Assembly: GCA_903813345.2 (NCBI GenBank)
Contig: CAIIXF020000004.1
Coordinates: forward strand, 19,143,513 to 19,207,512
Direction: 5' to 3'
Source: Owenia fusiformis
Taxonomy: Eukaryota > Annelida > Polychaeta > Sabellida > Oweniidae
Length of the DNA stretch: 64,000 bases
Below the pieces are notes generated by a model. The model ran no database searches. It was not told where the DNA came from and was given only the letters and a program-made list of their open reading frames with translations. This document shows, piece by piece, positions 4,750 to 58,020 of the stretch. The translations under genes were made by a program, and so were the position numbers. Numbering within the stretch: position 1 is the stretch's first letter; each line of letters opens with the position of its first letter.

Positions 4750-4929
4750 CTGGAACAAGGTCAGTGTTATAGCTGACATCAGCATAGTGTGTCTTCACCT
4801 CCTTTGGTACAAAGCTGACCTTGTACTGGCTCTGTGCATTACTTATCTTCTCTACCTCATGGGGCACTAGCTGGTCACCTGACCTGACTTTGATCTCCAG
4901 ATTGCCCTCTCCAGCCTCAGAGGCATCAA
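4750..4929 (-). CDS. FLN: Filamin exon E36 (type 1 variant, 180 bp), last in window
   Basis: Phase 1 to 1. It reads VDASEAGEGNLEIKVRSGDQ and ends HYADVSYNTDLVPG. It is four codons longer than the standard type 1 exon. No further exon is recognisable between here and the left edge, so the gene continues beyond the window. Confidence 0.9.
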
Positions 4930-7900
4930 CTGGAACATAAAAGCACCATTGAGTAATAGCCTATAAAGTGACCACTTGTTCAAATTGCAATATAAAGTGG
5001 GTATATATGGATGGAATCAGCACAGGAATAAAGAAAACAGAAAAGATATCACTCTTACTGTGAGAAAATAACAGAAAAATAATGACATATAAGTTAAATA
5101 TTAGAGTTTTTAATATTCAAGGCTGAGATTTCATGCATATCAACATTTTCCAACTGATATATAAGCAAGTTGGTATGTTGAACACACACCTGTTTTATGA
5201 TGATTTTTCCCATATTTCAGATCATCATTGAACCAAGAATCTACCACATCTGTTTTTGATCCTTTCTTTTTACTATCTGCTATCAATATTTGGTCATGAT
5301 TTGAATTTGAAATGCTGCGGTTGCTTGATGAAAAGTTGCTGTATAGTGGCTCCTGATTTGTTACATTCTGATTTCCATCGTTTTCAAATACTGCTTCCGT
5401 GAATCTTCTCCTAGTGATTGGCGTGACATGATGGCGATGTGTTTCACCATCTTGGGAAACGGATAACTTTTTACGAGTATGAGGTGAAGAAATATGATGA
5501 TTGGTTGAATGCACAGATGTTGATTTCATTGGAGCTAAACTAGATGTCGTATTGACACTTTCTGGTGGCATGTGTATACTTTTATGTCTTATATTGACAC
5601 TTTCTGGTGGCATGTGTATACTTTTATGTCTTATATTGACACTTTCTGGTGGCATGTGTATACTTTTATGTCTTATATTGACACTTTCGGGTAGAATATT
5701 TACACTTTCAGAACTTATTGTGTCCGAGGAATCACCACGGATCAAGCCTGATTGATAGACTTTTCGTTTTTGATATGGAGTTAGTCGCACATTACTAGAT
5801 GATTCCAGCAACTTTTGATTGGAAGCACTTTTAGGCATTGGGCAAGGTGGTGCTAGGGTATGAACTGTCTTGGTAGGACTTTGTGACCTGTTGTGTCCAG
5901 TTTTATATGTCCTTTTATAATGAAAATTAGGACTTTTGGGGATATCAACCCAAACAGGCACATCAGTCCTCTGTGATCCCGAATTTCCAGATTTCTGGAA
6001 TTCAGAGATGAAAGTCCTTTGTAAACGAGGAGATAACGTCCCTTTTGGCTGTTGGGAATAAAACTGTGATTTGGAAAAATGATCTGATGTATCCATAGCA
6101 ATGGGTGATTTGGGTATTTTGCTCCAAATATCCTTTCTCAAAATATAGTTCCTTGAAGGAGTTAGCTGTTGTAAAGATGATTTATTTCCTTTATCAGAAT
6201 CTATTCTCACTCGCTTATCATGTTTTGGTGATGTGCCCCTTTTCAAAATAGGTAAAGATTTTTGTCTCTTAAAATAAGCCTCTTTTTCCAATTTTGTTGC
6301 TCCAAACTCATCATCTGTACTAAAATAAAATGTCTCTGATTTTATTTCCTGACTTTTATTTTTAATTTGATTCCCAGAACTTTTCACATCATGACTGCTA
6401 TTTTCAAATTTTCCATTTTCAGTCTTAACTATTTTATAGCCGAGTTGTCTAACTGCATCAATAGATGGCTCAGGTTTCAGTATGTTTGATTTTAATTCTC
6501 TGTCAGTTGAATCAATATGTTCTACAATATTGTAATTCTTAATAGACAATCCAATTTGTTCTGATACTGAATCAGTGTTTTCAGTATGATGTGTTATATT
6601 TCCAGAATTTTGGTCTATGTTAATAGTCTGTTTTCTCTCAATTTGTGGTGATGAAGGCATCCTTGCTTTATAATTATTAAAATCTGTGACTGCTCAGCAA
6701 TGTCCCTTAACATATAGAAGAAGGATATTACCCAGGGATCTTTACTACATCATGTGACATGTCTTGAGCAATCAGAACTGTTTATGGTTTATGGTTAGAT
6801 GTTGTATTAAGTTTACATATTGTTGAATCTCTTTCTGCCATTTCATGTCTAAATATGTTGTATTTCAAGTAAAAGTCAATGTACAATATAGTTTTCTACA
6901 GCATGATAAAGGTTTAGGCAAATGTATCAGTTTACATAATTGGCAGAGGAAAATATATAAGCAAACTCCCAGAGTTCATTAAAATAAAGTGTCAATATTA
7001 ATCCATACAGTCCTTGCATCCTTTCTAATTATTCACTTTGAATCTGCTTGCAAATCTTTTGGAGGTTTGTGGGACTGGAAATTATGCTCTCATGAAACAT
7101 TCCAAGATAATTTAAAACAGCTAAAAGTCCAGCATTACTTGATGAATCAAAAAGTGAAAGAAACAGAATGTTCCTGTTTGATGAAATATTAACCCATAGA
7201 GTCCAATTGATATTCAGGATGAAATTATGAATATGTCATTATTGTACATTCCTGAGTATTTTTATGACAATATAGTGACAATGAGGTGACAGGTCAGTAG
7301 CATTATAATAGCTGCCAAAACTATGCATGGTCATGTATCTGAACACAAAACACATAATGAAGAGTGTGGAATCAGCAAGGAATAAGAAACAATAGCTCAG
7401 TTTGCAGTAAAGATTTTGGGGTCACTAGGTAGACAAAAATTTTCTGCATCAATTCAAATATGTCAGGTGTCTTACTAATTTGTAAACAAATGATTTGAGC
7501 ATTAATAGCTCCCAAGAATAACAATTTAAAAGCTGCTTTGATTATTCTATAACATCATTAGTACATACTGTATTTGCTATAGTTCATCATGAGAGCAAAA
7601 TGTATACAGTTCCACACAGCATCCTTAGAGGTATATGGGAGCTTTATCTACTGTAGAATCTTTATAAACAGGGCGTCACAAAAAGTGTATACTATATGAT
7701 ATGGGAATAACTCATTTTCCTTCATCAAAAAAGCTGGACTGTTCACATGATAAAGATTTCATTTTCAAAAAAGCAGTTTAAAATTCATAGAAACTAATTG
7801 TAAATTACTCACTGAAAATGTGATATTTTTTTTAGATAATACACCTCTACTAAAGGACGATTCTCGGTTTGGAGAACAGTCTCCTGGGCTAATATTTTTT

Positions 7901-10900: not shown

Positions 10901-13900
10901 ATGACCCATTTTCTTACTATTTAGAGCTCACTTTACCTCATACAACCTCAACCTCATACAGCTGGTTCAATTTCTGTATTATTGCAATAAGGTAAAATAA
11001 TAAATAAATTGAATCATACTATCATACTCATAAACATACATATCTTGATAGCAGCAAAAAGCAGAATATAAAACATAATTTCATTTAGCATTAATTTTGA
11101 ACAATCTAGTATAAATACATAATAAAAATCATTATGCCAGATATTGCAACCCAGGTTAATTTAGCCTTTTCATGGATTTGAAAACCTGCAAATTATAATA
11201 GCACACATACTGTAACAATATGTGCAACCTGGAAAGTACACAAAACAAAATAATAATATATTTTGATGAAGCTTTGCAAATTTCTAGTGCGAGTTGAACT
11301 ACCTGGGTTACATTATAATGGTTATATATAACAATATATAATACATTAAAATGAAAAATAATGGAATAAGTTAGGAATATAAAACATGTTGCTGATCAGT
11401 TATTAAGTCTAAATTGAAAATACTGTAAATGGCAGACACAAAGAGAAATAATGTGGACAAGGCAGTAAGCAGAATAAGCATTATTGTACAGTTCAATTAT
11501 TGGAAGTTTCCAATCAGTGATCCATTTGAAACATTATATTCCATGTGGACATCACTATTCAAATGCCCATTCCACACTAATTCACTCAACATCTCAATGA
11601 AGTTTTTAATTTTCTTGCATTTCTATAAAATTGAGAGTGTGAACATATCTTTACCTTTTCCTTGCTCATCCCATCATTTTCAAGCAGCAAAAGTTATGCA
11701 TACATTTTCTTTGAATAAATCAATATTTGAACAAAATCAATCAAATATAAATCAAAAACTAATATATCTAGTCTCTTGAATTATGCCACAAATAACATTT
11801 CAAGCACAATACAATGTATTTTTTCACATAAATATTAAGCAGAAGATTTCCCATAATGCATTTTTATATTTCAGCAGGTGATTATGAGATGAAACCTGTA
11901 AAACAATGTCTTTGAAGCTCATAGATGGCTATCTAGTGACACATATATGTGTCCCATAATGAACTTATGGCTATATTTACCCGAGATGCGTATATCAAGC
12001 TGCGCTGGGCCAAAACTAGTAGCATCAACCAAGAAGTTGACATCTTTGCCCACTGGGAAGAGTTCTAGTCCCTCTCCTGTGGCGAACACCAATGAGCCAT
12101 CTAATACACGTGTTGGTATGGGGCATGCTGAAGTATAGTATTAAAGGGTAATATGTAGCTTCCCATATGAAAATGGGTGGTTAACATGATGGAAGATTTA
12201 TGCTAGTTCCTACATTTGCAAACTGTAATATGCATGAAGGAATACTTTTTGAGAACTTCTTTTGACATTCATTACTTTTCATCATATTTGGCAGTCTTTT
12301 TTAAAAAAAAAAGTTGTTTCAAAAATAGGTTAAATGGTAAGACACACGATCGACCAACCAATAGACTGACAGATGGACCAACAGCTTCTCTTTATCCCTA
12401 CAAACTTTGTTAGGTTGTGGTTCAAACGAGTGACAGTTTTCATTTTACAAGAATTACTGATGGGAGATACGACACACAGATGGACATTTTTTAGAAAATA
12501 GATTGTAAGAAGAACTTAACATATATATTTTGATAACAATATTTCTAACATTTTACACTCTTATTCCTTTAACCAGCAGATGGGAAGCTGTGATGCATCA
12601 TTTCTTACCTGGGACCTTCAAGTAGTTGAAAGTGACATCAATAGAGTGATCGCCTGGCTCATTGGGGTTGTAGCTGAATAAATGTTTGTTGTTTCCAATA
12701 CTGTCCCGAGAGGAACGAACAAGATTACCCATAGGGCTTGTCACTTCTGCATCAATGTCTCCATATCCTGCTTCTGATGCATCAACTGTAATATTGAATA
12801 AGGAAGGCTGAGAATTAATTAGGGGGGTTAACATGTATGCGTTGTACCTTTAAATTTTACCATTTGTAAAAAGGTTAAACAATTGTTGGAAACTGATTCT
12901 GTTTTCATAATATTTTGATAACATGAGTATAGTAGGTGGCTAAATACTGTGTGGTTTCCTTTAACTCTTGTGGCGTACCCATCTTTTTATGAAAGGTAAA
13001 TAACATCTATTTCGATGTTTAAGGATGCTTGTATTCTACAAATGTTCCCCTGGCCCTATGATTGTACTAAAATGACAAAAATCAGGCAAATTCTAACTTT
13101 AGAGAATTAGAGAAAAATACCATTATTCATTTATCTCCCTTTCTTACCTGTAAAGTGCATATCTTTTTTTAAGAAGCCAGTGAAATCAACATTTATGACC
13201 TTGACCTTGGTGACATCAAACACCTGGCAGGTAAAAGGAGAACCAATCACATTTGCACCTCCATATGTCACTGCAACAACATGGCCACCAACAACCTTTG
13301 GTGTGAATTCTCCAATATAGATGTCACCCCGTATTCCAACAACTGTATCCAGATTGTCACCTGTTGGATCTGAAAACACAGGAAAGATGCTCTTATTATA
13401 ACTTACAAAATAAACAAGTGAATCAATTTAAAGAAATCAGAGAAGACAAATCCTTCAATGTAGCAATTATTGCAGGTTGATATCTCACATTGATGTGAAA
13501 ACGTTGATGCATTGTATATTACAATGTGTTGTATTGAAACCTGTGAATTTGTGTTGTGCAACTTAAAGACTCAGATAGAAATAAGGGCAAAAAGATACAT
13601 AGTTTTCCTCTGATGTCCCGATTTGTACATTTGTAAAAAAATAATGTTTGGCCCCTATGAGTTGTGTTCCAGATTGTACTGTAGCCTGACTTATCATTAT
13701 ACTAAGGTTTAAATAAATATATCTGTCAAATTAAGAAAATAAGTATAAAAGAACAATATGTGTGATTTTGTTTTTTTCTAATTTGTACAATGACATTCCT
13801 TCTAAATGACATTATTTAAGTCATGTAAGGGTGTCAACTACAATATGCACAAAAACTATTTCAATAATAAATACAGAAAATCTCCATAATTTCATGATAC

Positions 13901-16900
13901 ATATTGTTAAATTATTATAAGTCAGTGAAGGTTTTTATATAAATTATAAACTACTCTTCAATTATTTGAGACTACAAAAATAAGTAATAATAATGGGAAA
14001 ATGTGTGTAAGACCTAAGCAGCTCACTAAGAAGGACTCTTTGCATATGGGACTTGCTATTGAGACCACTTGTAAACATTAAAAAATGTTAAGATCCAGAC
14101 AATAGACTATTAGTGGATTATAACAAGAGTAAATTAAATGTTTGAAATTCAATCAATTTTAATATATAAATCCCTCTAATCATAGCAACACCAGTTGTAG
14201 ATAAGCCTTTCCCAATAGGTTAGTATGGTGCCACTAAGGGAAAAGGGACCATCCCAAAAATGAATGGAACACTTATTTTTTGAAATGTTAAACATTTCCC
14301 ATGAAACATTAAACTTATTAATGAAAATTTTTACCGAGTTACTTTTACTAATTAAATATCTAGTTGCAATATTGAATGGTAAGATTGCAAGCAATTGTGG
14401 AATCAAATATTTTAGAATTAAACAGTTAGTACAAAGAGCACTTGAACACTCACTGTTAAAATATGAAATTAATTATAGAAAATATGTTTCTTATTTGTTC
14501 AAAATGGAATTTTATATCAAAAAAATTCCTGAAATAAAAATTGTCTGAATATGAAATTATTCTATAAACTATGTAATGTCTGTACAATAACTAAAATAAA
14601 GATTATTTCAAAAGAAGAAAGCGACTGGGAATAAAAAAGCAACGGGAATAAAAAAGCAATGGGAATTTGATATGACCCCTAAACATGAGGGGGAGGTTAA
14701 CAATAGGCTAACATAATACTTGGAAATAGCCGTCAAATGTTTCTTTGAATACAGTAGCTAGGGGCATAACATTATCATTGTTGAATGTGGAACATTGTAT
14801 TTGATTTTAAAATCTTCTCACAAACAGAGGCAAAAAACCAAAGCTAGAATGGCGGATGCTCCACTTGATATGTTACATCGTGATCCAAGGGGTGTCAATG
14901 CCCACCTGCAGGTAAATTTATGTTTTTTATTGAAAATCGAAAAATTCTATGAAGAAGCAGATATATGACAGCTTGTGGAATGAAAAACTAAATGCTTAGC
15001 ATATAAACACTTCCACTCATTTTAACATTTTAAAAATCTATTCATACATTTATAAAGATTTATTTGGCAAAAAAACTAAATGAATTAGAAAATATTCATA
15101 TAATGTTGAGTAATGCTTTTCAAGTTTTATAAGGAATCAAAATGAAAATACAACACAGACATGCATGTATTATAAATCAGTGTGCTCATTTAAGGGTTTT
15201 AGAAAAAACTTGCTTCTTCAATTCAAGTTTAAGTTAATGTCTAATATTGATGTTCTGCATGGATCAGACACAGGTGTACAAGACATAAAACTTTTCAGGG
15301 TGTTGCCTTTGATGAATGCATTGCCGAACCAGATTCTGCCCATTCCATGGACTGCATCTGGTCCAACTCCTACAAATGCTTTGAATGCGGCAAAGGTCTC
15401 TGCTACAAACTTCTGACCTGTATGTGTGGTATTTGCATTGCCTTGTACTGGGGATGCACATTCGGAATTATCGCATTTGAGCATGTTTGGTGCATCACTC
15501 CTAACCTCAAGGTCCTTGACATCAACTGCAACATCTGCCAGAGGCTCTACGGTCTGTGTGTACACTGCATGTGCGATCCTTGCTGTGATGCCTTTGCTAT
15601 TCTCTTTAAATTCTTTGGGAAAGGAGGTGGGGAATAAGACTTTGTTCATGAACTGTGGATGTGGCCATCAATATCTGATGACATCATAATATGAGAAATT
15701 GAATTATAAGCTGATGAAACACCATGAGGGACACTTTATAAAACCTTTATAGACCTTAAATCCTGCATATCTGCTATCTCCAGTATTAAACATCAGAATG
15801 CATCAACAAAAAATATGTTAAAACTTTTAAATAATTATTTGGAAAATTGTTCATTTCTGATCTATAAAGGTCTTTGTGTGTATGTGTGAATTATGCTCTA
15901 TCTTCCTAACTATTATACTGATACATTTCACAATATATGAGGGGTGTACAATAAGTAAAGTGACTGCCTTTAAGGTCTGCTGCCATCCCATTATTTATGA
16001 TGCATATCCATAGTAAACCAATTATGCTTGCCAAACAATTGTAAAAGCTTTGAAATAAATCTGATTATATGCTTTATATGGTCATGTTTTTTGTATAGTT
16101 TGGGCAAAGGAGTGGAAATAGCAAGGAATGGGAAAAGGAAAAGAGGTTCATATACCTATACACTGTACTTTACAGGATGGTTAAAAAAACATTTGTTAAT
16201 TGTACACAGATCTTTTATTTCTCCTAAATTTTAATGAGTTTGGTAATTTGTTTATCTGCAATGCATTAAACTAGAAAATATTTGATAGGATTCCCCTTTC
16301 TTAAATATCTATGAGTCAATTTTGCCCGATTCAAAAAAATCATTCAAAGATTCAAGGAACATGTTATAAGGATTGTTATTAAGGATTGTAATACACATTT
16401 TATAAAATAACATTGTATTGGCAAGTGGTATTTACATATATGGTTTAGTAGAAACTATTCTGTTAATGCAAAATGATTAAATATATTTGAGAGAAGGGAA
16501 GAAGATACATGCCACAGGTGACCGAATATAATTGTACATTCATAAAAATAGAAATTGTTTCTCACCAGTAACTGTAACAATGACTTCTGCAGCTGGGGTA
16601 CCTCTGGGGTCAATTTCAAATCTACACAGCATGTTAACAGGGGCAATGCGAACTTCCTCAGTATTTACCAGCACATTACTTGTGTCAATTACTCTGCATT
16701 GGAATGGGGATCCTGCAGCAAAAATAATAGTTCCTCACATTAATCACAGTAATATATAATCTGGGTCTTATATTTTGAAGGTATTACCATTACTTGGTTA
16801 CCATTGGCCACAGGTGAGCTAATATCCAGTAAAATACTCTGTCTCCTGAAGGAAAGGTCTCCCTATAGTGATCCCAAATGTTTCTTACCAAGTACAACCT

Positions 16901-28900: not shown

Positions 28901-31900
28901 ATATGCCTTTGACGTGAATGGGCTGTTGTTGATTGACATGCCTGCATAGACAACTTCAATATTGTATGTTCCCACCTCTGGAGGTTTGTACTCAACTTGG
29001 TATGCTCCTTTTGTACGTCGGATCTGGCTGTTTATAGTGCGGTGACTTGGAGCTGAAAGAGATGGACCATATTAGAATATTCACAATTTTAAAGGTTTGA
29101 TTTTGTTTTGACAATATGCAAAATATTGTGTGGAATTAAGAAGATATGAGACAATGTATTTTTATCACTCATGACTAGACTCTGAAATCAGTTGAGAAAG
29201 ACTTACATGTCACAGTGACCTCAACATCTGACATGGTTGCCCCTGTGACATTGAATGATGTGACTCTGTTGACAGGAACCAGCTCAAGACCCTCTCCTGA
29301 TGCATTAACATTACTTGCATCACTGATGTTAACAGAATATGGAGCATCTGCAAATAAAATGCTCTTGAGTATTAAGTTTGTTTGATACATTCATGCACTT
29401 TTCTATAGCAATTATATTTTGTTTTTACATAGATATTATATTACAAGCAAAATACTTTATTACAGTTCATATATGTGCATTTCTTACTATAGTTTATTTC
29501 TGTTCTTAGGATACACTTACTTGGTAGAGAATAGTCATTAAATTTGATATCTACAGAGTAGACTTTAGCCTCAGTTGGCACAAATGTGACTTGGTAGGCT
29601 CCATTCCCCAGTGGTTCAACATTGTTGGGCACTGTTCCATTGTTTATCATGATCTCTAGCTGGCCCTCTCCAGCTGCTTTCACATCAACTACACATGCAA
29701 ATATAATATGACATCATTTGACATTTTGAATGCGTTTGAAATGTTGAACTCTAAGATTAAGTAATACAAATTATAGTTTTAGAAATCATGAATGTTCAAA
29801 TTCAATGCATGCATAGTTGCGAAATGATTGCTTATTCGAGTACACTGTACTGGTGCAGATATGCGCTGTATGTGGAAAAACACCAGTTAGACCTACCTGT
29901 AAATATGATTGGTCGACCAACAAGTCCTGGGTTGATCTTGCTGACCTTTATGGCACTAGGGTCATAGGTGCGTACCCTGAATGGGCATCCAGAGACAGGT
30001 TTTCCTAGATACTCTACTTCAACTGTGTGAGCACCTGGAGACACACCACAAGAATGTTCGCATCATTACACTTATACTTAAGTGATGTTCCAAAAATGTA
30101 TATGGTCATTTACCGATAGTTGATATATTTCATTTTTTATGTTCTATTGTTGATTTATCGACGTAAACTTTTTTCAATAATAATACAAGAAGTAATCATT
30201 CTCAGTAGGTCTATTTTCTGAATGCTGTTTATCTATTCTTGCCCAACAGAATAAATCTTTTACAATAAACTACAAGCAAGAACCCTGGATATGTTCATGT
30301 AAAGAATGTCAAAACATCTAATCATCTATTTTAAGTAGAACTGCATCACATACTCACCAACATCAATAGGAGTGTATTCCACTCTATATGTTCCAGGACC
30401 TTCCTCTGTTAGTGTGGTCTTTAGTGTTTTCTTGGTGGGTGCTAAAATTAATAGTACATGTATGTTTAAATTTTGCATCATAAGGGATTAATTCCATCAG
30501 ATGTCATTTCAAAATACTGAACATGTATTGTGAATCACTTAAATTGTGAATCACTAAAATATAATAGAGTAATAACAATTGTTAATGTTCATATCTCATT
30601 TATTGCACATAGTTATGTATCTCCAAATCATTCTTTTCTCTCCCCAATTACATGCTACATTATTATTTTCCTTTTTACTACCATAACTCAACTCTCACAA
30701 CCCATACATGCATCTTCACCAACTGTTCAACTTTTTGAAAAAATAGTAAATTGTAAACTGATGACCCACTTGACATCAAATAACCTAATTTATGAAATGC
30801 AATCTGGATTTCTTAAAGAACACAACACTCAACTCCAACTAACTGCTATAACAAACTACATTCTTCAAAATTTTGAAAATGGTCTCGATGTTCGAGCAAT
30901 ATTCTTGGACATTCAATCAGCCTTCGACAAAGTCCCTCATGTACTCCTTCTTCAGAAAATCAAATCCTACGGTATCCCAAAATCACTAATTGACCTTTTT
31001 CAATCTTACCTCACAAACAGAACAATTAAAATTAAGATCAATGATGAATTTTCTAGGTCAAGTAAAGTCGGTCAAATCAACTCTGGAGTCCCCCAAGGCT
31101 CAATATGGGGACCGATTTTCTTTTTGTTATATCTAAATGACGTAACAGACCACTTAAACTCTAAATGTTTTATCTATGCGGATGACACGTCACTTTTTTG
31201 TCCGGTTGACCCAATAAATCACCAAACAGATAGCCAAGTTCTTCAAGAAGACTTAATTCATATCCAAATGTGGTCCCAGAAATGGGGACTAACTTTCGCA
31301 CCACAAAAAAGTCACGAGTTGATCTTTAATACAAATAGACCAATTGAGAGAACATATCCTAAGTTTGTTTTCAACGACACTCCAATAGATCAAACCAGAA
31401 CAACGGCAACGCCAAAGCGTAGCGAATCCCATCGAACATTTTTCAAAACGGGCACCTTCTACCAAAAGTGTCATTAGACAGTGTGCCATGCTTATAATAT
31501 TCACATACCAAATATGAACAAAATCGCTCCACTACTTTTTGAGTTATAGTAAAAAACGTTAAAATGGCTGCCATTTTGAAAAATGGCCGCCTTCTACCAA
31601 AAGTGTCATTAAACAGTGTGCCATGCTGATACGTATTCACGTACCAAATATGAACAAAATCGCTCCACTACTTTTCGAATTATAGTAAAATAAGTTAAAA
31701 TGGCAGCCATTTTTCAAAATGTCCGCCATTTTTCAAAATGGCCGCCTTCTACCAAAAGTGTCATTAGACAGTGTGCCATGCTTACAGTATTCACATACCG
31801 AATATGAACAAAATCGCTCCACTCCTTTTCGAGTTATAGTAAAATACGTTAAAATAGCGGCCATTTTGAAAAATGATCGCCCTCTACCAAAAGTGTCATT

Positions 31901-34900
31901 AGACAGTGTGCCATGCTTATACGTATTCACATACCAAATATGAACAAAATCGCTCCACTACTTTTCGAGTTTTAGTAAAATAAGTTAAAATGGCGGCATT
32001 TTTTTAAACTGTCCGCCATTTTTCAAAATGGCCGCCTTCTACCAAAAGTGTCATTAGACAGTGTGCCATGCCTATAGTATTCACATACCAAATATGAACA
32101 AAATCGCTCCACTACTTTTCGAGTTACAGCAAAAATCGTAAAATAACGAGTAAAGGCCGCCATTTTTCAAGATGGCTGCCATGTGCTTTTTTAATATCTA
32201 CATTTCTAGCTTTATTAATGTCCTATATAATTTTTTTACATTTAAAACATATTGCTATTACAGTTTTACATATTGCACCTAAATTACTGTAAAATCGGCA
32301 CTAAAATGGCCGCCATTTTTAAATGAGTGGCCATTTTGAAAATCGGCTTTCGAGCAGAACTTCTACCCCCATAGGGTATATGTGTACAAAATATGAATAA
32401 AATCGGGCCAACGGTATTTGAGTTATTGCCCGGACGGACGGACGGACGGACGGACGTACGGACGGACGGACGGACGTACGTACGGACGGACGGACGTACG
32501 TACGGACGGACGGACGTACGTACGGACGTAGGTACGGACGGACGGACGGAGGCGTTCCCTATATCCCTCCGAACTTCGTTCGATGGGATAATTAAACATC
32601 ATAAGCACCTCGGTCTAATTCTTGATGAAAAGTTAACCTTCAAAACCCATATTGAATATCTAGAAGGTAAAGTTCAAATATTATTAAATCCACTTATGGC
32701 ACTTAAGCATAGATTAAATTCCAAACACCTGGAAAATGGAAAAAATTTACTCTTCCTTTATCCTGTCACATCTGCACCATTGTGATATCATTTATGACGC
32801 TGCTCCAGCTACCAGCCTAGCCCAGTTAGACAAGCTACATTATAGGGCAGCTGTTATTTGTTCTGGTGTTATGCAAGGAGCAAGCACAGAAAAAACCCTT
32901 GAAATATTAAATTGGGATAATCTTCAAAATAGACGGGATGAACATAAATTGCGCGTTATGTTCAAGATTCATAACAATTCGGCACCATCTTACGTTAAAC
33001 GGATTTTCGAACGATATATATCACCTCAGACGCGAGTTCTTAGAACAACCAACGACTACAAATTACCAGCCTCAATTAGTAAAAAAATGGAAACGGGAAC
33101 AGTTTGCTCAATGCTAACCTTGTGGAACCGTCTTCCTAGAGACCACAAGGAAACGAACAGCTTCTCACTTTTTAAAAAACAACTAAACGATCACCTCACC
33201 AAAAACACCGAACCTACAATTTCAACCTCCTACATACAGAATCTTGATAGAAAAGAAGAAATTGTACTAAATAAGATAAGAGTAAATCGATATTTCAAAT
33301 CCGATCTTTTTGACCATAATTTCTCTTTCATTAACGATCCATATTGTGACTGTGGAGCTCGAGAGACAGCACAGCAAAAACTCTTGTCCTGCCCTCTGAG
33401 AGAAACAAATGCGCTAGCGGTGGTTAAACATGAACTAAACTTAGATGTTACTAAATACAAAACATTAAAAAATAAGACAAATTTCCTACTTTTTGGCAAC
33501 AAAGATCTGACAAATGAAAACAATTCCAAAATCTTTAAGGCAGTTTTGAATTTCATTAAATAATCGATAACAGCAATTCAAATTCAAGGCACCAACGGGG
33601 GTACAGACAGGTAGAAAAACAGATAGTATCTAAATTATATATTTTTCTTACTCTAATAATGACTTTGACTAAATGTTATATTATATTGTATTTTAAATTC
33701 ACTTAAAGCGGCAGTAGAAATGCCCTTTCAGGGCGATTACGCCGTGAATAACAATGAAAATGTATCTATGATTTTAAGAAATAAAGAGTATTTATTATAA
33801 AAAAAACCAAAAAAACCAACTGTTCAAAAATATCATATAATGAAAGATTAATCCTGTTTCACATTAACGTTTATGAAAAACCACTGACATTCAGAATTTT
33901 GATTTTCATTGATACATTTAACTAAATATTATGGAATCTCAGCAAATACTTACATAATATGCGTGCATGTATGTTAGTCTTCTGTCCCCCAATGACGCTA
34001 ACCATGAACCATGCCTCTCTGTTTACTGGTATCAAGTCTGTCCCGCGGTCTACCACATCAACTTGTAGAGGGGGAGGGGCATCTGCTATCATAAAATTCC
34101 AAGGACTTCCTAAAACCAAATCAAGAAATTATCAATCAATTAGAGATCTCTAATACAGAACTTCTTTGAACCGCAGTCTAATTCCCTTACCATCATTGAA
34201 ACACAGCATATTGTAATCCTGACATCTAATTTTAAACATATAAGTATAATAATCCTATTTTGGAAATCAATATTCAATCAATATTTCGTATTTGTTTACA
34301 ATATACATGTTTATATATCATACCTGGTACAGCTTCCTTGTTGAAGGTCATTAACATGCTATGTTTCCCTGGGACATGAGGGATGAATGTAGCTGCAAAT
34401 GTACGCCTTCCTGTACGCTGTACGTTACAGGGGACCTGTCCATCATTGACCACTATCTCTAGATTCCCACTCCCTGCCTTTGAGACATCAACTACAAGAA
34501 ATTGAAAGTTGTGAACACTAATTATAAGAAAGTGAAACAAAATGAATTTTCACTTGGTACCACTTGGTCAGGGCTTAAGCCAAGGGCTGGTCTGCTGGTC
34601 ATTTGCCAAGTCACTTTTAATATGGACCAGTTGACTTTTTCACTAAGTCTAGGAAAATAACATGGCAACTGGTCTTAAATGGCATTTTGACCTGCTGCTC
34701 TCAGAACCTTAGCTCAATCCCTGCCTTTGGTTGTTATTCAGACATCTTTGCATAAAATAATAGCCTTGCAGAACTATATATACTATAAATATCTGTATCT
34801 GCACCTGTAATTCCTGTAATTTCTATATACAGCTGAAAATGAGCCAAATATACAATAGTTCTTGACCAAAATAACTCTGTCCAAAGTTCAGTACTTACTA

Positions 34901-49900: not shown

Positions 49901-52900
49901 ATTCTAGAAATACAAAGCACACTTCTCTTGCACATTCACACTCACTCAGCTGTAAAGCATTACGGCAAAAGGTATAGAATTATGAGACAATGCAGAAAAT
50001 GGAGGAATTAAGAAAAGGCAGGTTTGGATGACTTTAATTTCCAAGAAAGAGCATCAGAGAAATATATGTAAAAGTCATGTAGTTAATTTTAGACTTCAAT
50101 TAAGAAGATTTATGACTACATGAATGACAAATTGCAAGATTATTTGCAGAAAACATGGAAAGCAACTAAATCAAAAAATGAATGAGTAAAAATAAGTATA
50201 ATGAGTGTGTACCAAAAAGAAACTTAGATGGTCATCAATCTACTTCTACTTAGTTAAGAAAAATCCTAAACATGAGGATTTAATATAGCACATCTACAAT
50301 ACTAGATAATATTTACCTTTCTAAAGCTTAATTCATCCTTCAATCCCCAATGGTAGAAACAGCCTCAACAACCAAACTATCCCAGGGCAAGTAATTCTAA
50401 TTTCACCAAACAATTCCAAATTTTTTTTTAGATATTTCTGTCATAATTCTAGGACAAAATAAATAATTTGGAATTGCTTTGTAAGAAAATAAATTTATGA
50501 TTAATAAACTGAAAAAATTAAAAGTTAGTTCTCTGAAAATTGTTAAATTCCTAAAATAAATTGTTAGTCCTGAAAAGAAAAATTATTTAATTGACCATAG
50601 AGGCCATAAAATAGGTCAATAACACCTAACAACCAAATAACCAGTTACCTTAGCAAATGATTGTAGCGTGCATGTTGCCACAACAACAAGCAAAGTTTTA
50701 AAGAATGAGCAGTAAGTTTAGCCAATCAAACACTGGATAGACAATCATACATTCTAATATCTCTCTCCCATGCCAATCAAACACTTGATAGACAACCATA
50801 CATTCTAATATCTCTCTCCCATGTCACTTAAAAACATATATATATACCATCAATTACATAACACACTTTCACATTACACACATTCTGAATATGCATTCAA
50901 CTGCATGTCATTTATAATATAACATACATATGTGAGATTCTAGGTTAATATCATCATCACCACATTTTATATAGGAAAGGATGATTGGGTTAATGCAATA
51001 ATGCTGTTTCTTATTTGTTCATATAACAATAATGTTTTAGTTATTACTTGTGTAAAATAAGAACTTTAGATAGCTTAATACTGTAAGGCCTGAAACACCC
51101 ATTCCAGTGCTTTTGTCTATTTCAAACCTATTTTTTATATCTGGAATGTTGCATGCATATAATTATGTGTTAACCAGGTTAACTTTTTAGCTTTTTATTA
51201 CCAAACCCACATGTTAAGATCACAGTATTAGTCAACACTTTTTGAGGTCCATTAAAAATTTGCAAAGACAATAATTGAGTCGTTGTAATTATAAATTACT
51301 TGTGTTAAATTTTCTAGATTATAAGATGTTATGCCATGCTGCAGTAATGTATTATGCTATTTCTAAGTGGCATTGGTCATACTATGTTCATTCATTTCAT
51401 AAACATGACCATGTTACATTGCATAGGAAGAAATGCTGCTTAGAGCTGATCAACATATGATTCATGCAAGACAGCATTTATAAAATGGAGTTTCGTTTGA
51501 GAAATATACCTGACATATCAAAAATATTGCAAAAAGTTTGTTGATTTTTAATTAATGTTCTTTGAAAGATTCATTATGCATTTATTAGAAAGAAATCTGC
51601 ATTTGACATTGAACTTCATGAAAAATCATAAAATTTTGATCTCTCTGTAAACCTGATCTTGTGACCTACTCACATGCGATAAGAACCTTGATGTCACCAG
51701 GCCCTGCCCCATGGGTGTCAATCTTAAAAAAGGCTGGCCTTCCACACGCAACTGACTGAAGCCCTGCCCCTGACACTTGAACATTCTTTGTATCAATGAT
51801 TTCAACTTTGTGTGGGGAACCTGCAAGTACACAGTCACATGTATAAAAACATTTTAGTTAACACATGAACATTTTTTCAACTCTCCAATCATTTGTCTCG
51901 TATGTTACATATTTGATATCATATAATTTTAACATGATATCAATAGAGGAGTTGCTATATAGATGCTAGATAAATAAATGCCATAACAGTAGAAGTGTTG
52001 GTCAGGGCAGAATACTATCTTTAATAATAAGGAGATGCATGACAAAAAGTCACATATTTCCTGATTTTATTCATGTCATACTTGATTGGCATGCAACTAG
52101 AAGGTTGAAGTTGCTGACATGCCTATTGTGATAAAACATTAAAAGTGAATTCCTAATTATGTGTAAGCCTTAATTAAATTTATAAAATCCTAAATATATA
52201 CATGTAAATATTAAACGACCTATGTAATGTGTAAGCCTTGCTTGAAATCAAAGAAACTATAACAAAGACACTTAATGACTCAGATGCGAGTAGGTAGTTT
52301 CTTATCCCGTACCAGGACTATAGTCCTGTATGGAGCGCACTCTTTTGCCTGTACGATTACAACTTGGGAGAATTATCTACGCCCCTTACACTTAAGATAC
52401 CTACCTCAATGCATTATAGAACTCAAAATGTAACTTCTAATATATTGGAACCGCCGATTGTCTGGGTATATCGGCAGAATGGGAACATTTTTCTTTTTCA
52501 TCGAGAGAGATTCCATCACTTTTCAACATGGCGGTTGGATTTAAAAGGGGAATCCCCCGTATGACTGTCCCGGATGTGGACCGGAAGTACCAATATGGAG
52601 GAATTTGACGGTTGAAATACGAGGGGCGATCAATAAGTAATGGACGCTTTTTTACACAGATACTTGTTATAGACCAATCCCTTTGATTTTCCTACCAGTG
52701 ATACATCATTCAATTATCTATCAATTCTGAAGATTTGAAGACAAGATATACAATACATGTTGATATATCCTTATTTCCGTGAAGGAGGTACAGGTACCCC
52801 GGGACCGACATTTACGTCACATATTCAGATTTTAGCCAGTTTGGTAAATTTCAGTTAGATTTGAACATTTTATATGCAACAAGTGTTGTGTTGTTTAAAA

Positions 52901-55900
52901 TTTTTTGCTGACTGGTAACACATAAACAGAAAATATTGTAATGTCAGAGTGTTGTATGGAAGGGGTTTGCAGGTCAATTCGAGAAAGCATTCAGTGGAAG
53001 AAAGGGGTGGTGAGAGAAGGGAACACCCTACTCCTTATGGACAATGCACCTGCCCACAGATCTCAAAATGTTCAGAAAACAATATCCCTGGACCTCAAAA
53101 TTGAGCCCTTGGCCAATGCACCATATTGTCCTGATCTGCTCACATGTGACTTGTTTATTTCTATACTACTTATTTCTATAGAGAAAGGACGCAGGTTTAT
53201 TGTCATTGATGAAATAAAACAACCCGTGCAACTGCATCTTGCTACTTTGTCAGAGTATGGATTCAGCCTTGTCTCACAATCTTGAGTGAAGAGGATGAGG
53301 AATTGTGTACATGTAGCACTTGATGGAAACTATTAAGAGGGCCCCGTGGAATGAATTTGGCATGAATACCACATAGTGATGATAAAATATTCAAAATTAT
53401 TATATTATTACTATGGCATAACAAAATGGGGTAATTCATGACCATAATGGTTTGTTTTGTTCAGCCTGCATTCAACTGCATTGCATGTTAAACAATCTAA
53501 AATAGCTTCAGAATATGTGACGTAAATGTCGGTCCCGGGGTACCTGTACCTGCTTCACGGAAATAAAGATATATCAACATGTAATATATATATTGTCTTC
53601 AAATCTTCAGAGTTGATAGATAAATGAATGATGTATCACTGGTAAGAAAATCGAAGGGATTGGTCTATAAAAAGCATCTGTGTAAAAAAGCGTCCATTAC
53701 TTATTGATCACCCCTCGTAAGTTAAATGTTACACGCAAATATTGCGATCAAAAACGAAAATGTCTTCGTTCTGCCGATAAACCCAGACAATTGTGGATTC
53801 AACTACACGAAAAGAATGCTAAAATACCAAGGAATCTATTGAAGTAGGTATCTGAAGTGTAAGAAGCGTAAAAAATTCTCCCATGTTGTAATCGCACAGG
53901 CAAAAGAGTGAGATGTTCACAGGACCATAGTCGGGGAACAGGATAAGGTAGTTTCCAGTTTCACCACCAGATGGCTCATTCGGGTCAGATAGCATGGCGG
54001 GTATGGTAGAAGGTTCCCTTTAACTTGAATATTCATCAGTTTTAAGGATTCAATTTTCATATCACCCTTATATGTTTAATAGTTAGGCAAATTAAAATAT
54101 GTCCAGTAAAAGAAACAATATCTGCCCAATACAAGAAAAGATATTTCACTTTTTGTGATTTTATAACATGGGGTCTATGGGGAATCTCCCAAACTAGAAG
54201 TCACATTTTCAAAAAATTAAATTTTCAAAGTTGAAAAACAATTTTCGAAACGATATTTCTAAATGTACATTTACATGTAGATTTCCAATATGACATTACA
54301 TTGACTGAATTTTGTATATTTAATGACGTAAATCAAGATTATTTCTACTCGCATCTAGTCTATTGATTCTGTGTTCTATGTGTAAGCCTCACTTGAACAC
54401 AATGAAACTGAAACAAAGACCTTCTATGATTCGAAAAGCTAAGTGTAAGCCTTGTTTGAACTCAAAGAAACTAAAACAAAGACATGTAATTGGTTCTGTG
54501 TTCTATGTGTAAGCCTTACTTGAACTCCAACAAACTGAAACAAAGACATGTAATTGGTTGTGTTCTATGTGTAAGCCTTACTTGAACTCCAACAAACTAA
54601 AACAAAGACATGTAATTGGTTGTGTTCTATGTGTAAGCCTTACTTGAACTCCAACAAACTAAAACAAAGACATGTAATTGGTTGTGTTCTATGTGTAAGC
54701 CTTACTTGAACTCCAACAAACTAAAACAAAGACATGTAATTGGTTGTGTTCTATGTGTAAGCCTTACTTGAACTCAAACAAACTGAAACAAAGACATGTA
54801 ATTGGTTGTGTTCTATGTGTAAGCCTCACTTGAACACAACTGAATTGAAACGAAAACATGTAATTGGTTCTGTGTTCTATATTTAAGTGTAACTTAAACG
54901 AAACAAAAACATGTAAATGTCTCAATAAGCTAAGTGTAAGCCTTGCTTGAACTCAAACAAACTGAAACAAAGACATGTACATTGGTTCTGTGTTCTATGT
55001 GTAAGCCTTACTTGAATACAAAGAAGATGATGAAATTGCTGTTACTTTGGCTCCATATTTCTTTTCATGTTTACCTTCTAGTCTTCTTCCCAGATCTCTT
55101 TCTCTTGGCACACAGTCACCACTAATGTCACTGACAGATGAACTATTTACAGTTATTGCTGAAGCTTTAGGGACTGAGATGTCCTCATCAAAAGTATCCA
55201 TGATATTGTTTGAGTTGTTTATATTTTTATTAACACTTCCATTGTCTGGCACAGTATTTTCTGTGGTCAACATCTCAAGCATTAGACGCTGCATCTCAGA
55301 TTTAATATTTACTTCATCATTTGGGTTTGAATTCCCGAAGCTATTTTTTGAGCTCATATCCACAACTGTGTCCATTTTGTCCTTCACAGATGGTCCCTGT
55401 AAACTATTACTTATTTCTCTCTCTGATGCCTCTTTGGGGCCTTTTGGAGGTTGGTCTGGAATTGACTGTTGCCCCTGATAATTTGAAGTAGATGCTATCA
55501 CACTGTTTGATGATGCGGAATGAATAGCTCCACTTTTTAAGATCTTGGATGTGTTGCCTCTTAAATCTATGGAAGTAATATGATATGCACCTTTGCTGGA
55601 ATCACCATGTTTTACATTCTCAACTTTATTCAAGTTGATTTCCCCATGCTGTAAATCAGGTGTTGTGGTCTGTTTCTCATGAAATGACATGTTGTGTACC
55701 TTATCATCAATATTAATATGCTTTGGAATCATTTCTGATACAGATCCTTTGACATCATCTATGACACTGATGTATGGTGAAGTGCTTTGAGCAATGCTTT
55801 CATAATCATCAACTGGTGTACTGTTAGAAGGTGGCTTCATTGCATCAATACTCTGCGAGGATCCCGGTTTAGATACTAGTTTTGGCAATACATCATCATT

Positions 55901-56293: not shown

Positions 56294-58020
56294 GCTTAGT
56301 ATGCTTACTTTCTATACTTTATTCTGTTAATATCTCAGTGATTTGTTTACTTCAGCTGACAAAGGATCAGGTTTTGTATGGAGAATGATTTTAGACAGTC
56401 ATATATTTGAACATGAATATTTTCTCATCAAAATAATAAGTAAAAAGATATATGAGGTTCCCATGTAATATAACATATTTTTCAGAATGTTGGAATTATT
56501 TTCTGAAAAGAGGAACTTGTTTAACCAGTCATACTGAAATATTTTTTTGAATAGAGGTCCCATTTCCACGAAGAGACATAAGCCAATTTTTGAACCAAAT
56601 CAGATATATGTAACTGCAAATAAAGTTATCTAGTATTATTGCAACAATTTACTTGACCATAGGTTTTATCATTCTAAGGCATCAGCATAAAAAATTGAAC
56701 TAAATCCGTCAACTGGTATTTGAGTTATAAAATATTGAAAACCCCTTCTTTTACAGATGTCTTATAAGACATTAGCCTATTAAAGAGGGCTCAGTGAGGA
56801 GCTATGCCACTTAGTTATAGATTATAATGAAAGTATATCTAATTCAGGCTTGTAAAGATCAAAAGGATCAAATGAAATGTTCATACCATCTCACAACCAC
56901 AGTAACAACAGTGGTATGGTATGACTCTGTGTTAGACAGCAGGGGTTTAATCTCTTAATCCTTTCACTCCAAGTCACACCAGGTTTGTGGTGTGACTTGG
57001 TGTTAATTAGTAAAGAAATTATTTTTTATACCAAGCAACACCAAAAATGTCCAATTCACACCATATCCTGATTAGTAGTGAATGGGAAAATAACATGGGA
57101 AATTTCATTTCCTTTCCAATTTTCTAACATCAACATGCCCAGTGATTGGAAAAATGGGACGGAGGAGGGGGGGAAGCAGGCAATTTCTGCTAGAAAATTC
57201 AATAAATCTGAATAATTTATTTTTTGAAGAGAAAGTTTACAATTGAATTGCCTAATGGATAGGTGCACAGTATGGTAAAATATGTTTGGTCTTCTATAAT
57301 TTTTTGAACCGATACGCTTCTAAGATATGAGATCTATTAAAAAAAGGCGCAAGGCCACCAACGTGCACAAGTCAGTGTTTTTGCTATAAATCAAGTAACA
57401 AAGGTCTGCATGACATGTAATAAATACATGTAAGTCTAGTAAGGTTATCATTACAAAACGAATGACATTGCTGGCTTTATAAAATAAGTCTCCATACGTC
57501 ATATAAAAATAATTAAAATGGGACAGAGGGGAGGGGACAGCAGGGGCAGATATGGAAATCAACAAGGTCAGGTCTGATAAAAAAACTCCGCGCTTGCAAG
57601 GAAAATATTTTGGGCCCAAAAACCAAAAAGTGTTTTTTCAAAATTTGGCCAAAAATTGAAAAATAAGGCCCCACCCAAAGGGGGGGGGGGGGTCCCTGGG
57701 AGTAATAGGTCTATAACACATGATAAGAGATGTTTCTTGACTTAATGTCCTATAACTCCAAATTTCCCCATTTTTCAGCCTTCAGAGATCCAGTTACATC
57801 CAGTAACATCCAGTTTCTTCCTGGGTTACTGAGTTTGTTTTTCAAGTACAAGAATTTGTGTAATTTTGTTCCACCTAACCTCCCCCTCCTATTACCTCCC
57901 CCCTCCGTCCTCTTCCATAATGAATTACATTATTTGTGAAAACTGGTTGCCATTTTGAATTCAGGAGTCATCTTGAAAAGACTTTCTTGAGCAGTGGTTT
58001 TATTGTGCTAAAACATCATG
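56294..58020. other. Upstream of putative first exon
   Basis: It should contain the promoter of exon 55075-56293 if that is a true first exon. It includes fragments of the repeat found at 58,021-58,170, a 13-base G run at 57,680-57,692 and short C/T-rich tracts. No TATA box seen with confidence. Confidence 0.35.

Follow-up and report, generated by a model that had tools for sequence, protein, structure and literature searches.

The window analysed here, a 64,000-nt stretch of the Owenia fusiformis genome, carries a caveolin gene on the plus strand. The coding sequence of this gene (14849-15637) is wholly enclosed by a single intron of filamin, which is encoded on the minus strand. The coding sequences of the two genes, their strands and the host intron are shown by the analysis, and no coding exon of caveolin overlaps a coding exon of filamin. 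The original prediction had proposed a two-exon caveolin on the plus strand in this position, and the arrangement is borne out by the annotation presented here. The features of the locus, with the evidence used for each, are as follows.

4750-51820, minus strand: filamin-like exon span in the window, the host gene, with neither end established (profile, gene model, Pfam, PDB)
13148-13369, minus strand: 222-nt filamin exon that follows the host intron, equal in length to the 84-nt plus the 138-nt repeat-unit class
13370-16565, minus strand: filamin host intron, 3,196 nt, containing the entire caveolin coding sequence (splice sites and restored repeat)
14849-14911, plus strand: caveolin coding exon 1 (MADAPLDMLHRDPRGVNAHLQ), 63 nt, including the pin-motif region (translation, Pfam Caveolin match)
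14912-15298, plus strand: caveolin intron, 387 nt, GT-AG, phase 0, with ungapped homology to human caveolin-1 (Cav1) across it
15221-15667, minus strand: open frame of 149 codons that faces caveolin exon 2, read as a shadow frame, without Pfam match
15299-15637, plus strand: caveolin coding exon 2 and stop codon, 112 aa (translation, Pfam and 7sc0 matches)
16054-16059, plus strand: AATAAA, a weak candidate for the caveolin poly(A) signal, within the host intron
16566-16712, minus strand: filamin exon that precedes the host intron, of the 147-nt repeat-unit class (gene model, splice sites, Pfam)

Filamin host gene

The host gene belongs to the Filamin/ABP280 family (PF00630), and its tandem repeats match human filamins A, B and C. 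A profile that was started with a single filamin-like frame placed 17 open frames above the inclusion threshold, from 8439 to 35055 and all on the minus strand; at 51669-51857 it reached an E-value of 0.06 only. A purpose-written gene finder was run on the minus strand and gave a filamin model of 57 segments. The outermost filamin-like segments, 4750-4929 and 51674-51820, were assigned by eye only. The repeat exons of the model recur in lengths of 84, 138, 168 and 147 nt with a splice phase of mostly 1, and amid them this member of the family has a large low-complexity open frame (5143-6693). The exons that flank the host intron are segments 45 and 48; the exon numbers E30 and E31 that had been given to them earlier were not reproduced by this model, which is itself incomplete at both ends.

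For exon counts and codon statistics 31 of the 57 segments were kept. Segments 1-11, 14, 15, 17, 18, 27, 28, 31, 46, 47 and 52-57 were dropped, and of these 27, 28, 31, 52 and 55 look filamin-like and were omitted for doubtful borders or on account of the surrounding model. Segment 52, dropped from the counts, was used in the spliced stretches tested with Pfam. A spliced filamin stretch of 573 aa around the host intron matched PF00630 with 289.3 bits in 6 repeats, and a version of 511 residues matched 51 distinct PDB sequences at E <= 0.001, all except two carrying the name filamin or filamin chimera.

On the minus strand the host intron runs from the donor TTACTG/gtgaga to the acceptor ttttcag/ATCCAA. 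When the exons at 16566-16712 and 13148-13369 are joined directly, they encode a single Filamin repeat (PF00630, 45.2 bits, cut-off 26.9), which covers residues 8-95 of the joined exons with the junction after residue 48. Since the flanking exons restore one repeat in this way, the host intron is set at 13370-16565, and the splice sites given for it in the original prediction proved correct to the base. The intron is placed at a repeat-unit boundary that is also in use in other parts of the gene. Nor is it alone in being long: of the 30 gaps that separate the 31 kept exons, 7 exceed 2 kb, although three of these seven span dropped segments, among them the host intron, which contains the two shadow exons. 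The G+C content of the window is 0.28-0.38 per 2 kb, a range that, together with its repeats, would suit a marine invertebrate such as a bivalve.

Caveolin gene

The caveolin coding sequence consists of two plus-strand exons joined in phase 0, which together encode 133 aa in an intact frame with a stop codon. The exon 1 donor (CTGCAG/gtaaat) is strong, ranking 2nd among 93 GT sites by a generic splice score, whereas the exon 2 acceptor (cttttcag/GGTGTT) is weak by the same score, ranking 31st among the 147 AG sites of the region 13390-16565. The exon junction was accepted despite the weak acceptor because homology runs across it.

The gene had been described as complete, and its frame is intact, with a stop codon and GT-AG sites. 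Completeness is only presumptive at the 5' end, where the frame of exon 1 is open 5' of the ATG as far as 14762, and where an acceptor-like site just before the ATG (exon start 14828) ranks 9th of the 147 AG sites. An extra 5' exon is possible, either coding for more of the N-terminus or purely untranslated, and perhaps located outside the host intron.

Caveolin exon 2 has a G+C content of 0.466, against 0.291 in the remaining host intron. The third-position GC of caveolin is 0.526, which is above that of every 133-codon stretch of filamin (0.301-0.459; 1,564 filamin codons) and so fits a separate coding gene. AATAAA or ATTAAA occurs 4 times in 15638-16565, against 3.5 on average over 500 shuffles, and TATAAA hexamers near the caveolin coding sequence are barely in excess (5 vs 3.7 in shuffles); with both counts near the shuffle level, neither a promoter nor a terminator is demonstrated by them. 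Vertebrate CAV genes presumably have a phase-0 intron within about one codon of the position of the Owenia caveolin intron, and if this is right, the latter would be ancestral.

Caveolin protein

The predicted protein matches the Pfam family Caveolin (PF01146) with 120.1 bits (cut-off 25, E 8.1e-35) over residues 6-124, so that the match runs through residue 21, where the exons join. Among solved structures, human caveolin-1 (7sc0, E 7.9e-27) comes nearest in sequence, with 44 of 120 residues identical, without gaps and over both exons. Two structure sequences were matched in all, the second being the caveolin structure 9dn0 at E 0.0011.

The regions of the protein (pin, hook, scaffolding and spoke) are named here as defined in PMC12330381, where the pin motif of Type II caveolins is given as Cav1 49-60 and the caveolin signature motif is placed at Cav1 68-75. 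Owenia caveolin is like Cav1 (7sc0) and the Type II caveolins in that an ungapped alignment takes in the pin motif, the hook and the scaffolding region and extends into the spoke region. In the pin motif, LDMLHRDPRGVN aligns gap-free with Cav1 IDLVNRDPKHLN, a sequence match only. The signature reads FDECIAEP, against FEDVIAEP in 7sc0, so that 5 of 8 residues are identical, and two of the three changes are D/E exchanges.

Cav1 is palmitoylated at cysteines 133, 143 and 156. Only the last of these three has a counterpart in register in Owenia caveolin, which has 17 cysteines in its 133 residues, the 16 others standing at other places. The cysteine in register belongs to the C-D-P motif (Cav1 Cys156) and is shared with Cav1, as are Phe92 and Pro132, whereas Val94 and Pro110 of Cav1 are each replaced by Cys and Trp98 by Leu. 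The N-terminal variable region of Cav1 is nearly absent: by extension of the alignment, the predicted start corresponds to about Cav1 residue 44, and the first ~43 residues of Cav1 are without counterpart. For exon 2 alone, a single-sequence structure prediction reached a mean pLDDT of just 45.7, which is too poor to inform on the disc.

Open frame opposite caveolin exon 2

The gene finder took part of the minus-strand open frame opposite caveolin exon 2 as an exon with splice sites. The model exons opposite caveolin, at 15330-15612 and 14877-14905, were rejected, the filamin repeat being whole without both. We interpret them as shadows of the caveolin coding sequence, because the repeat is whole without them and because the open frame is without a Pfam match. 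The frame is nevertheless open across all 112 codons of caveolin exon 2, and random synonymous versions of this exon were equally open in 0.5% of 2,000 draws based on window triplet frequencies and in 0.8% of 3,000 draws based on filamin codon usage, although this openness was tested only after the frame had been noticed. These figures would favour a real filamin cassette exon, with DNA that codes on both strands. However, when the synonymous codons of exon 2 itself were permuted, the opposite frame was open in 2,000 of 2,000 draws; it is open because TTA, CTA and TCA are absent among the 13 Leu and Ser codons of the exon. A fully open opposite frame was also found in 19 of the 31 filamin exons, though these are shorter, and a cassette exon here would disrupt a filamin repeat that is intact without it. 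Together with the Pfam search, which returned no match, this makes a cassette exon barely conceivable.

Insights into the origin and persistence of the nesting

We regard it as probable (about 0.75) that the locus holds an ordinary functional two-exon caveolin gene, nested antisense in a filamin intron, and that its position is most likely a historical accident. The gene would have arrived as genomic DNA and not as a processed retrocopy, because its intron has been retained. It would use its own promoter and its own poly(A) site inside the host intron, and the caveolin-bearing intron would be spliced out of the filamin pre-mRNA as usual. The product is most likely a short, cysteine-rich, membrane-embedded caveolin, presumably functional and capable of assembling discs. 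The nesting itself would be neutral and would persist because it does little harm. Given a long filamin target and many partner families, one such coincidence of caveolin and filamin per genome seems unremarkable.

Host intron and guest were also compared with other sequences. Within the window, blastn (low-complexity filter, E 0.01) returned no further copy of the host intron, and no Rfam match was found within that intron. Repeats in 13200-16700 are short or weak; a 17-nt unit occurs there in 2.8 copies at 14618-14666. With no second copy, no Rfam match and only minor repeats, a mobile-element origin was rejected as a candidate, and nothing indicates the mechanism of arrival. Relatives of caveolin exon 2 were sought in viral contigs, which gave no pattern match, and in prokaryotic contigs, which gave 31 pattern matches, none of them confirmed by tblastn; both collections are uninformative on conservation.

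Other readings of the locus concern its state and its history. Replacement of Val94, Trp98 and Pro110 of Cav1, together with the weak exon 2 acceptor (rank 31 of 147), would agree with a silent or dying copy that merely looks intact, but 133 codons have stayed open over two exons, the family score is strong and the base composition of caveolin differs from that of the surrounding intron, so that we consider a dying copy highly improbable. The nesting might instead be the relic of an ancestral linkage of caveolin and filamin, in which the one gene became enclosed in the other by local rearrangement or intron growth. In human, CAV1 and CAV2 are located with FLNC on 7q, and CAV3 with FLNB on 3p. 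According to PMC12330381, the Parahoxozoan species examined, with two exceptions, carry their caveolins on chromosomes of ancestral linkage group Eb, which also points towards such a relic, and still we hold it to be unlikely.

A further reading would have the nesting be functional, through shared enhancers or antisense interference that match the doses of two partners at the membrane and the actin cytoskeleton. The original prediction had likewise raised coupling or interference through opposite-strand transcription, and had fairly labelled functional coupling an inference. Filamin had been named as an established physical partner of mammalian caveolin-1, and the literature agrees: direct binding of CAV1 to filamin A is reported in mammals (PMC10047380, PMC7054752, PMC3573937), and one of these three sources places filamin binding in the N-terminal part of CAV1, the extent of which it leaves unstated. 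Even with ~43 N-terminal residues missing, Owenia caveolin might conceivably bind Owenia filamin. It is also reported from minigenes that nested genes can perturb the splicing and polyadenylation of their host (PMC3192792). On the other hand, the coordinates of the coding exons of caveolin and filamin are without overlap, and a study of nested genes and their hosts, with 109 pairs in human and 752 in Drosophila, reports no significant correlation of expression (PMC3786989). The Pacific oyster, if a fair analogue, would likewise argue against matched doses, as one of its caveolins is described as female-specific from gonad stage 1 and its filamins A and C are described in a different cluster from caveolin, assigned to somatic cells (PMC3348941). 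On balance a functional nesting appears decidedly unlikely. The stronger version, in which caveolin within filamin is ancient and conserved, and two force-sensing partners share intronic regulatory DNA and are matched in expression in muscle or mechanically loaded tissue, we consider very unlikely.

Comparison with other nested genes

Flies reportedly provide an early opposite-strand nested pair, the pupal cuticle gene in Gart (Henikoff, 1986). Surveys, including PMC3786989, describe nested genes in animals as common and frequently antisense, and report no significant co-expression of guest and host. The same source gives ~6% of Drosophila genes as nested; 659 internal nested genes are reported among Drosophila orthologues in one study, and for a single ctenophore genome the number of nested genes is given as 2,357. 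Caveolin within filamin is thus a fresh instance of a familiar arrangement, with a mild interest that comes from the partnership of the two families.

Nesting is at present regarded as neutral, according to PMC3786989, but neutrality is no rule, since some nested pairs have been kept very long. The nesting of 2mit in timeless2 is reported from 21 Drosophila species and the honey bee, and as absent from four moths and butterflies (PMC3786989). As this pair is long-lived and its products are seemingly unrelated in function, conservation alone would be no proof of a link between the products of a host and its guest.

A search of the open-licence literature found no publication on caveolin-filamin nesting or synteny, which is weak evidence of absence; on the gene structure of caveolins it turned up only an unrelated paper. 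With a host and a guest from families known to bind, the locus offers a clean case for testing selection on nesting. If caveolin within filamin is present across a phylum, it becomes a natural test of selected nesting; should it turn out to be confined to a single species, it is no more than an anecdote.

In its layout the Owenia locus closely resembles 2mit in timeless2, as described in PMC3786989. There, too, an entire coding gene lies in a single host intron on the opposite strand, and 2mit has two exons and one intron, as does Owenia caveolin. The two cases differ in that 2mit and timeless2 are apparently unrelated in function, whereas caveolin and filamin belong to families whose members bind each other in mammals.

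Open frames and caveolin composition

Open frames and fragments in the filamin region
5143-6693 (-): low-complexity open frame of 517 codons, flanked by filamin-like exons
15221-15667 (-): open frame of 149 codons, antisense to caveolin exon 2
30521-31474 (+): reverse-transcriptase-like frame (RVT_1, 91.9 bits)
32718-33560 (+): second long frame (sole match NYN_YacP, 17.2 bits, below the cut-off)
52926-53282 (+): DDE transposase-like fragment (DDE_3 at 22.9 bits, short of the 28.6 cut-off)
54998-56311 (-): polar open frame of 438 codons with an early Met

The reverse-transcriptase-like frame and the second long frame are both situated between filamin exons, and together they look like a non-LTR element lying antisense to filamin. 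The low-complexity frame, which contains tandem repeats of a 42-nt unit (within 5508-5717) and had no match in Pfam, is possibly a large disordered insert of filamin. The 438-codon frame, likewise without a Pfam match, lies upstream of the most 5' filamin-like exon observed and could serve as first exon for a form of filamin that lacks CH domains.

The caveolin encoded at 14849-15637 (+) is cysteine-rich (17 of 133 residues), with a third-position GC of 0.526 compared with 0.382 in filamin. The codons TTA, CTA and TCA are absent from its exon 2.
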